From IMG/VR virus record IMGVR_UViG_3300005537_000041, positions 1-39,972 of that record: a stretch of DNA of 39,972 bases; one strand, given 5' to 3'. The notes beneath the pieces were generated by a model. It made no database searches and was not told the DNA's origin. It saw only the letters and a list, made by a program, of their open reading frames with translations. This document shows positions 65-7,779 of this stretch, piece after piece. The position numbers and the translations under genes were made by a program. The stretch is from a virus. Within the stretch, counting starts at the first letter, position 1. Each line of letters starts with the position of its first letter.

Positions 65-110
65 GGGTCGATTTCCTAGTTACGAATGAAGCTCAAACAA
101 TGAACTTCAG
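1..110. repeat. Terminal direct repeat, left copy (circular genome)
   Basis: This stretch is identical, base for base, to 39863-39972. It shows that the molecule closes on itself or has short direct terminal repeats. The reading frame that starts at 39926 is reproduced here from base 64 leftwards, so the join preserves a gene. An assembly overlap of a circular or circularly permuted genome is the simplest explanation; true 110-bp packaging repeats are possible but would be unusual with a P22-like headful portal. Confidence 0.97.
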
Positions 111-1030
111 GCTGCGGGCTGCTCGAATTGCTGCTTCATGAGCTCGTCCTTGTACCACTCGGGTAAGCCGCGAGTGCAACCACGCAGAATGTGATGGCGC
201 GCGTATTCCCACAGGCGTTGTTGGATCTCGGGCACGCACTCTTTCTCCACGTCCGCCTGGACTTCCTTGATGAGATTGCCGATGTCGCGCGGCGAGCCTT
301 CGAGCTTCCCGGCCTCTTTCAGGTGCTGAATTGCTTTGTTCCAGCGCGCCGGGGTCCGCACACTCTCGATCAGCCCCGACACGACATCCGTAGTCGTGGG
401 GTTCTCCTTCTTCCACTCAGCCGCATGGACTTCCTTGAATGCCTCGGACACAAACTTGCCGATAAGCACCTTCTTGTCCGGACCGAAGCGTCGGTAGTTC
501 TTCACCACAACGCCCTCGATTTTTTGGCCTCCCAGCACCGACGTGCGATCGAGCATCGTCCGGAATTGCTCTGGTGTTTCGATGACGCCCTCGAAAACCA
601 GAGGGACACATTCCAGGCCGAGCCGATCGCACTCCGCTGCCTTAGCTGCATAGGGCAGATATTCTTCATGCCCCGTGTTGATGTCGAATACCATCAGGTG
701 CCGATTGGGAATCCGGTCGTATGCGAGCGAGTTGTGCTTCGGCTTCTTCAGGTATTCGGCGCGATACGTCCAGCCCACGGTAAGGGGGAGGTTTTGTGCT
801 ACCTCGACCGCCTCAGTGAACATCTTCTCGGGCGCGATCACATTCAACTGCGCGCCCTTGGATCGGCATTTGAAGTCCGTATGCGATCCGTCCTCGCTTA
901 GGAAAAGACCGAAGGAAAACTGGCTTCCATCGATCTTTTCTTCCACGATAACCGGGTCCAGCAAGAGTTCTGCAAGACCCCTATGGCCGATAGCGAAGGT
1001 GCTCGGGTAGCTGTGCCAACTGGTGAACAT
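107..1030 (-). CDS. RNA ligase (Rnl2-like nucleotidyltransferase)
   Basis: The 307-aa product has the motif order of the ATP-dependent RNA ligase / covalent nucleotidyltransferase family. Motif I is EKIDGSQ, with Lys32 as the expected AMP-accepting nucleophile. YRAEYL lies at 89-94, a FDI motif at 115-117, the motif IV box EGVVVK at 172-177, and a motif V lysine in IGKF near 192. Such enzymes seal nicked RNA or tRNA, which in T4-type phages repairs host anticodon-nuclease damage. Its start overlaps the stop of the upstream 73-aa gene region, in the leftward early operon. The family is clear; whether it seals RNA or another substrate is inference. Confidence 0.88.
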   Translation of the reverse strand: MFTSWHSYPSTFAIGHRGLAELLLDPVIVEEKIDGSQFSFGLFLSEDGSHTDFKCRSKGAQLNVIAPEKMFTEAVEVAQNLPLTVGWTYRAEYLKKPKHNSLAYDRIPNRHLMVFDINTGHEEYLPYAAKAAECDRLGLECVPLVFEGVIETPEQFRTMLDRTSVLGGQKIEGVVVKNYRRFGPDKKVLIGKFVSEAFKEVHAAEWKKENPTTTDVVSGLIESVRTPARWNKAIQHLKEAGKLEGSPRDIGNLIKEVQADVEKECVPEIQQRLWEYARHHILRGCTRGLPEWYKDELMKQQFEQPAA

Positions 1031-6429: not shown

Positions 6430-6644
6430 TGAAGCCCAGCGAGTACCTGCGTACTCGAGCGCGCTGCATCTTCGAAGGCGATTGGCTCATTGCCCAGGGG
6501 CCGCTCCGAAAGGATTGGTTTCCCTTCGTCGCCCTCACGATGCCCGACTTCGAGGAGCGCTACGACCCCTCCGCGGGCGAGATTGAGGGCCATGTCTTGA
6601 GGCTTTGCCTTGCCGCGGCGATCGCGGAAGGGGAGGGCCAATGA
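6426..6644 (+). CDS. Hypothetical 72-aa protein
   Basis: Two adjacent ATG codons at 6426 and 6429 overlap the previous stop. The product contains RARCIFEGDWLIAQGPLRKDWFPFVAL and an acidic middle, with no known domain. Its end overlaps the start of the following gene in ATGA form, so translation is coupled along this early cluster. Confidence 0.6.
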   Translation: MMKPSEYLRTRARCIFEGDWLIAQGPLRKDWFPFVALTMPDFEERYDPSAGEIEGHVLRLCLAAAIAEGEGQ

Positions 6645-6850
6645 TTTTGCGCTTCGGTAGCCACGAGTTTGCAATTCCCCTTGATACCACTTTCGCGCCG
6701 AAGGCAGTCCAAGTCTGTCGGACGGACGCTAGTTCGGGTGTAGGGAATCGCTGTCGGATGCGGCAATCGCACGCTAGAAAGCTACGCGAAGCGAAGAGGC
6801 ATTTGTGGAAGCACAGCATTCCAACATGGAGCAAGTGGAAGGGCTGCTAG
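6641..6850 (+). CDS. Hypothetical basic 69-aa protein
   Basis: ATG at 6641-6643 overlaps the previous stop. The first half looks beta-rich (ILRFGSHEFAIPLD) and the second half is strongly basic (RKLREAKRHLWKHS). No family is recognised. The reading frame and overlap support a gene, but composition is unusual, so confidence is moderate. Confidence 0.5.
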   Translation: MILRFGSHEFAIPLDTTFAPKAVQVCRTDASSGVGNRCRMRQSHARKLREAKRHLWKHSIPTWSKWKGC

Positions 6851-6880
6851 ATAAGGCGTGTCTAGCCTAGCGAGGACTGG

Positions 6881-7531
6881 ATGGGATACCGCTACACGAA
6901 ACTGTTCGAGCAGATTCTTGAGTCAACAATTTGGTGTGAAGTCGATTCCACCCGCGTGGTGTGGATCACCATGCTTGCGATGGCGAGTCGGGACGGGGAA
7001 GTGCTCGCCAGCATCCCCGGCCTTGCGAAGCGCGCGAATGTCACCCTTGAGCAGTGCCAGGTTGCGCTAGAGCGGTTCCAGCAGCCCGACAAATTCAGCC
7101 GCACGCCCGACCATGAGGGCAGGCGTATCGCGGCCATTGATGGCGGCTGGAAGCTCCTGAATCACGCCAAATACAGGGATCTCTTGGACTCCGAAGCCGA
7201 GCGCGAGCGAAAGCGCAAGTGGTGGAATGAAAACCGCGGAAAGAAGAAGTTATCCACAGAAAAACTAGACGGCACTAGCGCGAACTCGACGCCACTAGTG
7301 AAACTAGCAGAAGCATCTACAACTACAACTACACCTACAGGTAGTGCTTTACCCCTCCCCCCTGTGGATAAGTTTTCCAAAAGCAAAGTCCCCAAGGGCT
7401 GGTACGCCAGCGACGAAGGGATCATGCAGGCCGGAAGGGCATTGGGAATGGAGGCAAAGCGAGGTGAGACGATGCCTTCCTACAAAGCGCGCATTGAAGC
7501 TCACATAAACGCTGCCGGAATAGCTGCATGA
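6881..7531 (+). CDS. O-like replication initiation protein carrying the origin
   Basis: ATG at 6881 follows GAGGAC. The first ~100 residues have a winged-helix pattern of phage replication proteins: YTKLFEQILESTIW, TRVVWITMLAMAS, then SIPGLAKRANVTLEQCQVAL and GGWKLLNHAKYRD. A basic linker (ERERKRKWWNENRGKKK) and a Ser/Thr/Pro-rich disordered middle follow; this middle is encoded by the iteron/DnaA-box DNA. The C-terminal part (KGWYASDEGIMQAGRALG) may contact a helicase or loader. The layout matches lambda O, whose gene also holds the origin. Coupled to the next gene by ATGA. Confidence 0.75.
   Translation: MGYRYTKLFEQILESTIWCEVDSTRVVWITMLAMASRDGEVLASIPGLAKRANVTLEQCQVALERFQQPDKFSRTPDHEGRRIAAIDGGWKLLNHAKYRDLLDSEAERERKRKWWNENRGKKKLSTEKLDGTSANSTPLVKLAEASTTTTTPTGSALPLPPVDKFSKSKVPKGWYASDEGIMQAGRALGMEAKRGETMPSYKARIEAHINAAGIAA
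7250..7371. other. Candidate replication origin (DnaA boxes and iterons)
   Basis: Perfect DnaA boxes TTATCCACA (7250-7258) and its inverse TGTGGATAA (7363-7371) bracket a tandem array of ACTAG words at 7264, 7274, 7294 and 7303, with a degenerate ACTCG at 7284. The period is therefore 10, 10, 10 and 9 bases, one helical turn. Next comes a CTACAA-type 6-bp repeat (about 7316-7342). Everything lies inside the O-like gene, as in lambda. Confidence 0.75.
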
Positions 7532-7779
7532 GCGCGCGCATAGAGAAACGACGAATTGAAGTGCCAATCGAGAGGGGCATACCGATTCCGCCTCTAGCCA
7601 AGAAGGCTAGAAGTTTCTGCCCAATGCGCCTAGCAATGATGAAGATTCAAATAGGCGAATCGATCCTATGCAAGACAGAAGGCAGCTATCAGAGTGCTAC
7701 GCGATCGGCGCAGCGCGTAGGCATCAAGGTGACGGCGCGCAGGGTGGAGGAGGGATGGCGGCTTTGGCGTATTGCCTGA
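7528..7779 (+). CDS. Hypothetical protein, tandem paralogue 1 (83 aa)
   Basis: ATG overlaps the stop of the replication gene. The last 55 residues align without gaps to the next gene: shared IGES/VGES, a Cys, a central Ala-rich helix, GIK, and a C-terminal VEEGWRLWRIA versus VEDGWRVMRVA (20 of 55 identical by eye). The N-terminal 28 residues are basic and Pro-rich (ERGIPIPPL). The pattern GES...R...A...GWR.WR is seen in small phage proteins of unknown function. Confidence 0.65.
   Translation: MSARIEKRRIEVPIERGIPIPPLAKKARSFCPMRLAMMKIQIGESILCKTEGSYQSATRSAQRVGIKVTARRVEEGWRLWRIA

Follow-up and report, generated by a model that had tools for sequence, protein, structure and literature searches.

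In lambda and the Stx phages, iterons and an AT-rich tract are located in the middle of gene O, and the tract is needed for unwinding (PMC7466680). In the F plasmid, a RepE dimer binds two inverted repeats between the promoter and repE, while the iterons of the origin also bind RepE, a strict division of labour being questioned in that article (PMC13028717). A third system for comparison is the DnaA-trio element (BUS) of bacterial oriC, in which double-strand sites stand beside a repeat of short step that could bind protein on one strand (PMC8287927).

Here, we describe a locus in a stretch of 39,972 bp, referred to as the window, in which the linker-coding part of an initiator-like gene is likely a replication origin of the lambda type, where the initiator belongs to a new family and a hexamer array recurs, a functional assignment deduced from the DNA and its relatives. 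We assign a probability of roughly 75% to the full reading, namely that this linker is the origin of the phage, where the initiator would act on the iterons, opening would take place at the array, the C-terminal part of the protein would recruit the helicase, and sites upstream of the gene would serve autoregulation. The locus resembles the lambdoid origin in that the putative iterons of the initiator lie in the middle of the initiator gene and are followed by an adjoining tract, here the array as a candidate for unwinding, but it differs in that the AT-rich tract is replaced by tandem hexamers. The features are listed in Table 1.

Table 1. Features of the candidate origin and its gene. Positions refer to the window; L002 is the locus encoding the nearest relative.
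Feature	Position	Strand	Basis
Inverted repeat GCTAGA-N9-TCTAGC preceding the start codon, candidate operator; a further CTAG at 6867	6846..6866		Perfect 6-bp arms; upstream cores in the family
Initiator-like gene, 216 aa, holding the candidate origin	6881..7531	+	ORF and 98 related loci
Region encoding the conserved N-domain, predicted winged helix	6881..7231	+	33-member alignment, model pLDDT 84, CRP-like fold matches
Left TTATCCACA, DnaA-box consensus	7250..7258	+	Exact match; kept in L002
Five putative iterons, ACTAG/ACTCG at 7264, 7274, 7284, 7294 and 7303	7264..7307	+	Site search; 10-bp period in the family
Hexamer array of six CAnnnn units, candidate opening site	7308..7343	+	Run search, codon shuffling, array in the family
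Right TTATCCACA, facing the left one	7363..7371	-	Exact match; absent from L002
Region encoding the C-terminal piece, which presumably interacts with the helicase machinery	7372..7531	+	Similar end in L002

Pfam and PHROG searches of the window revealed an integrase, a Cro/C1-type repressor, a CII-like gene, RecE-, Erf- and NinB-like recombination genes, terminase and portal, and the window therefore most likely represents an uncultivated temperate phage. The repressor gene and the CII-like gene precede the initiator-like ORF, which is a usual place for a phage initiator. Among 20 ORFs of the window, no match to a helicase or helicase-loader family was obtained (PHROGs for 20, Pfam also for 10), a further difference from the lambdoid origin. 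The cumulative GC skew, proposed as a check in the preliminary description of this DNA, is approximately flat along the window and allows no origin call. In the recombination arm of this temperate phage, an RNA-ligase-like gene is located at window positions 110-1030 on the minus strand (PHROG 548 at 2e-22).

The preliminary description had called the 216-aa protein "O-like", a term that suits the layout of the locus but finds no counterpart in the sequence, as the protein itself matches no Pfam or PHROG family at 0.01, including the models for lambda O and replication initiation; in this, too, it differs from the known O families. Relatives are encoded by 114 IMG/VR stretches, from which 80 loci were kept, and genome contigs added 18 loci. 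The resulting family set of 99 sequences (window, 80 viral loci and 18 from genome contigs) was thinned to 82 by shared 4-mers. An initial profile scan of genome contigs had given no confirmed relative, and the C-terminal 52 aa as query retrieved none. Among named phages, no relative of the protein or of two other N-domains of the family was found in 50,697 records, nor was there one in 72,556 plasmid records with one family N-domain as query.

Across the 33 aligned members, the first 100 residues are strongly conserved. The N-domain is predicted to be a winged helix, with Z values of up to 7.5 to CRP-like domains; the VIA-align Z values remain below 8 among the matches listed, which belong to a common fold. 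Foldseek returned nothing at E 0.001 against the PDB. A viral library gave two matches at E 0.001 or better, one of which is an uncharacterised phage protein. The aligned members give a few weak matches to DnaD-like or replication PHROGs (best 0.015), and 8 of the 33 match HTH_36 weakly in Pfam, where DUF1376 and Phage_rep_org_N are matched at 0.1 by none of the 33. When 10 C-terminal parts were scanned, one matched Phg_2220_C and one resembled DnaT below the cut-off. On the basis of fold, neighbours and modules, and not of a direct homolog of known function, the best reading of the protein is that of a replication initiator. Among loci L003-L081, one type of N-domain is joined to differing C-terminal parts, such as Phg_2220_C (L025), a DnaT-like part (L017) and a part with the motif "FWxxYPKK" (L004 and others), and the variety of these parts looks as if recruitment modules had been exchanged downstream of the origin.

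ACTAG units one helical turn apart, within the initiator-like gene and in DNA shared with its Ser/Thr-rich linker, had already been proposed as iterons. The four ACTAG units and the single ACTCG at 7284 were found again, in steps of 10, 10, 10 and 9 bp, the stretch translates as a Ser/Thr-rich linker, and a period of 10 bp turned out to be family-wide. Four ACTAG within 40 bp occurred in 0/200 order-3 Markov simulations, and CTAG is the most enriched of the 256 tetramers in 6700-7650, with 13 copies compared with 0.66 expected in this interval, which was chosen after the sites had been seen. In L002, whose protein shares 61% identity with that of the window, 22 consecutive linker bases are identical to the window, and 9 of the 10 CTAG in 8630 bp are located in the linker or just before the start codon. 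Loss of the iterons in relatives keeping the protein had been named beforehand as speaking against an origin; instead, CTAG sites remain clustered in L002 and the 10-bp period extends over the family, so that the iterons persist together with the protein, whereas the facing DnaA boxes do not.

In 58 members, the self-similarity of the 72 nt preceding the array peaks at lag 10 (0.391 compared with 0.298, z 11.2) and is raised at lag 20 (z 6.1) relative to a control of synonymous codon shuffling with the codon usage of each locus, z values which are somewhat overstated because the members are related and the counts are not fully independent. Since ten is not a multiple of three, this period cannot be demanded by the protein. 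A repeated GTnnnn core (GTAACG, GTAGAA, GTGGAC, GTTAGC and others) was identified in 55 of the 82 members, and 155 of 199 successive core spacings measure 9-11 bp; the iterons of the window are of the CTAG type, without the GT core typical of the family. The steps of about 10 bp are shorter than the iterons of lambda, which are 18 bp long. The GTAACG iterons of L022, L033, L048 and L060 alternate between steps of 10 and 11 bp, so that two helical turns span 21 bp. The iteron core showed no significant co-variation with residues of the N-domain (best partial r 0.15; 95% permutation limit 0.165). A 14-mer from the window linker used as search query retrieved at least 120 stretches, which were judged to be mostly chance matches, and the loci L082-L161 were left unused.

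The second element, the hexamer array, was absent from the preliminary description, as were the CTAG sites upstream of the start codon. In the window, it consists of the units CAGAAG, CATCTA, CAACTA, CAACTA, CACCTA and CAGGTA in register and is the longest CAnnnn run present, the next best having 4 units. A six-unit run appeared in 0/200 Markov simulations and in 0/2000 codon-shuffled window linkers. In the family, the array is a 6-bp tandem repeat directly 3' of the iterons with the consensus CAGAnn. Scored by CA and period 6, it is found on the coding strand in 58 of the 82 linkers and on the other strand only in 2, compared with 99/1640 codon-shuffled linkers, and a run of four or more CA at period 6 occurs in 51/82 linkers as opposed to 132/2430 shuffled ones. 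No array is recognisable at the threshold in 22/82 linkers, among them that of L002, although a 12-bp repeat below this threshold occupies the position of the array there. After CA, which is fixed by the run-finding method, the family unit continues with G (78%), A (83%), A/T/G and G/A, and T accounts for 7% of the family array. Iteron cores and array were both placed in 38 members, and in 21 of these the distance from the start of the last core to the array is 11-12 bp. The GC content of the linker is 48%, compared with 58% and 55% in the flanks, and that of the window array is 42%, compared with 58% in the part encoding the N-domain. As judged from these alignments and repeats, array and iterons are conserved at the DNA level and their order is kept across the family.

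By analogy, the closest concept for the array would be the DnaA-trios, with the likeness in layout given at the outset. However, the unit here comprises six bases, with A at the middle position of only one trio in two (49% at position 5), and the family has no fixed DnaA box, exact boxes being found in the window and L002 only. A reading of the array as DnaA-trios would fit only half of the trios.

Arrays were also sought beyond the family by scanning viral contigs for (GCAGAR)4, (CAGATA)4 and, as a control, (GACGAR)4, each scan giving at least 120 stretches, of which 80 loci were listed and used. Although the (GCAGAR)4 scan was based on DNA only, 43 of its 80 listed loci fall in the initiator family, compared with 1 of 80 for (CAGATA)4 and 0 of 80 for the control. 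From 9 or 10 of the 37 non-family (GCAGAR)4 loci, 10 ORFs were sent to PHROGs, and 6 of them match replication initiation, O-like or DnaD-like families. The ORFs of the control array mostly match head and scaffold PHROGs, with no initiator among the best 25 of 44 families. For (CAGATA)4, the scan covered 76 of the 80 loci, leaving aside one with too short an ORF and three whose ORFs were too long. A single DnaD-like helicase-loader PHROG is matched by 47/76 ORFs, and matches to other initiator PHROGs are frequent, as seen in the best 25 of 84 families; in Pfam, 11/76 match DUF1376 and 4/76 Phage_rep_org_N. These arrays are preceded by repeats at lag 11 (z 6.5; 66 distinct sequences), and no repeats precede the control array (lag 10 z -1.2, lag 11 z -0.5; 74 distinct sequences).

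YdaU (DUF1376) and other initiators of temperate phages share the layout of repeats followed by a short GATACA linker array, which among seven named phages examined was found in short forms in Rac-SA53 ydaU, Pseudomonas phage D14H and Acinetobacter phage Silvergun. They differ in their N-domains and in the shorter or weaker arrays of the named phages and of K-12 Rac, whose ydaU has a weak form. For the Rac prophage of E. coli K-12, an active origin is described under the name oriJ (PMC3945230). A Geobacillus phage carries (GAAAAA)n, PfDIW6 a GAGAA-like repeat and 683R6 a weak form, and SPN1S has no clear array, so the exact hexamer unit is not universal. A description of the hexamer array in phage initiators was not found in the literature searched, most subscription papers lying outside the reach of this search. 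We tentatively raise the idea, doubtful as it is at present, that a T-poor CAGAnn/CAnnnn array could be a general, strand-specific origin-opening signal of temperate phages, common to unrelated initiators, read six bases at a time by the helicase-loading machinery as a phage counterpart of DnaA-trios and hidden as AEAEAE, DTDTDT, SASASA or KQKQ linkers.

Recurrence of the arrays with unrelated initiators is also what would be expected if a host factor were involved, and the array might then serve host primase or a step of single-strand binding that follows opening, rather than opening itself. CTG is the start triplet of E. coli primase, and two of the commonest units put it on the other strand. 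Nevertheless, we regard this explanation as unlikely, as CTG occurs frequently in DNA of any kind, CAG is present in no more than 2 of the 6 units of the window, and units such as CACCAA and GAAAAA lack it.

A further explanation, which we rate as rather improbable, is that the array is a coding microsatellite in which slippage yields flexible AEAEAE or DTDTDT linkers, with no function of the DNA itself. Several non-family (GCAGAR)n ORFs indeed have AEAEAE stretches in products that, judged by eye, resemble structural proteins and not initiators, and the copies within one array are not independent of each other. However, the Ala codons in the AEAEAE stretches are GCA in 163/163 cases, compared with 30.8 expected from the usage of each locus, and the 43 members concerned agree on this codon. 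The array word is also used in other frames, giving KQKQ in L067 and DTDT in L062 and L076, and on the opposite strand, giving LPLP or SASA in L056 and L017. Its fixed place beside the iterons and the absence of the control hexamer from the initiator family among the loci listed likewise argue for a signal in the DNA.

The iteron core recurs 10-60 bp before the initiator start codon, often as an inverted pair. When the linker core of each member was sought in the 150 bp before its own start codon, 59 sites were found over 54 members, 32 of which have at least one. This corresponds to 6.74 cores per kb as opposed to 0.35 per kb outside the gene, and to 1.09 cognate cores per member compared with 0.097 when cores were swapped between members (0.24 at most in 300 swaps). 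If one mismatch is allowed, 16 upstream pairs are inverted at 12 bp, whereas the linker repeats are direct at 9-11 bp. Of all the evidence, these upstream cognate cores point most strongly to a single protein reading both the linker and the upstream sites, in the simplest case the initiator, and by analogy with RepE of the F plasmid they suggest autoregulation of the initiator. The likeness to iteron plasmids of the RepE type (PMC13028717) comprises direct iterons at the origin, cognate inverted repeats before the gene and DnaA sites near by. The differences are that the candidate origin is placed inside the coding sequence, that the protein family appears to be another one, and that autoregulation would be a property inferred by comparison; a check for Rep homology gave one predicted winged-helix-like domain and, by sequence, chance matches only to the solved structures in the PDB, while the fold matches listed would allow a relationship to Rep. 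A perfect inverted repeat TCTAGCC-N5-GGCTAGA at window 7593-7611 lies in the gene after the initiator, so the CTAG sites reach beyond the origin.

The cores could instead be operators of another regulator (C1-, Cro- or CII-like), in which case the linker sites would be an intragenic silencer and not an origin. The cognate cores before the start codon, with their frequent inverted pairs, and the regulator genes adjoining the initiator gene are in line with this. We nonetheless hold it to be very unlikely, as it is hard to see what a repressor would gain from direct repeats at each helical turn and a conserved array within an initiator-like gene. In addition, neither sigma-70 promoters nor terminators were found in window 6600-7600, which is weak evidence and leaves the candidate operator without an assigned promoter.

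The preliminary description had framed the origin by perfect facing TTATCCACA boxes. The boxes themselves are as described, facing each other with 104 bases between them and with no other exact copy in the 39,972 bp; an order-3 Markov model built on the window predicts a mean of 0.035 exact boxes, and an inverted pair within 150 bp appeared in 0/200 simulations. As the frame of the origin they did not hold up, since the L002 linker has only the left box, in the same place, and an exact linker box is present in 0/80 other relatives, i.e. in 1/81 overall, L002 being the nearest. From this distribution, the TTATCCACA boxes are not a family feature but a lineage-specific, local addition, which may recruit host DnaA. 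That host DnaA binds the facing boxes as the core, looping and opening the DNA between them with the ACTAG units only assisting, would agree with a pair far above chance, with the box kept in L002 and with the DnaA sites at the origin of iteron plasmids such as F (PMC13028717), but is hardly probable given the loss of the right box and a family that keeps iterons and array instead.

In the preferred reading of the linker as an origin served by its own initiator, the winged-helix N-domain would bind the ACTAG iterons, one per helical turn, so that the protomers would line up on one face. The complex of initiator and iterons would then open the adjoining T-poor hexamer array. As A and T do not predominate in CAGAAG arrays, it is doubtful that base composition by itself would bring about opening; binding to one strand is more likely. 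The C-terminal part would help to bring in the host helicase, and the initiator may also occupy the CTAG sites shortly before its start codon and in this way restrict its own synthesis. Novel features appear to be the initiator family itself, its linker layout including a six-base array conserved as DNA, and the recurrence of such arrays in unrelated phage initiators. If the reading is true, origins of uncultivated temperate phages could be found by the rule of cognate iterons, then a six-base linker array, with the core before the start codon, and a low-complexity protein feature would become a DNA signal. It would also offer a direct test of phage origin opening, possibly a step common to unrelated initiators.

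In some loci, the origin-bearing linker contains an endonuclease-like insert, HNH-like in its text in L009 and MUG113/T5orf172-like in L013/L014, L506 and L525; of these, L009, L013, L506 and L525 were chosen by eye or by text pattern. In the (CAGATA)4 set, MUG113 and T5orf172 were each matched in Pfam by 2/76 ORFs, and homing of endonucleases into origins is possible.
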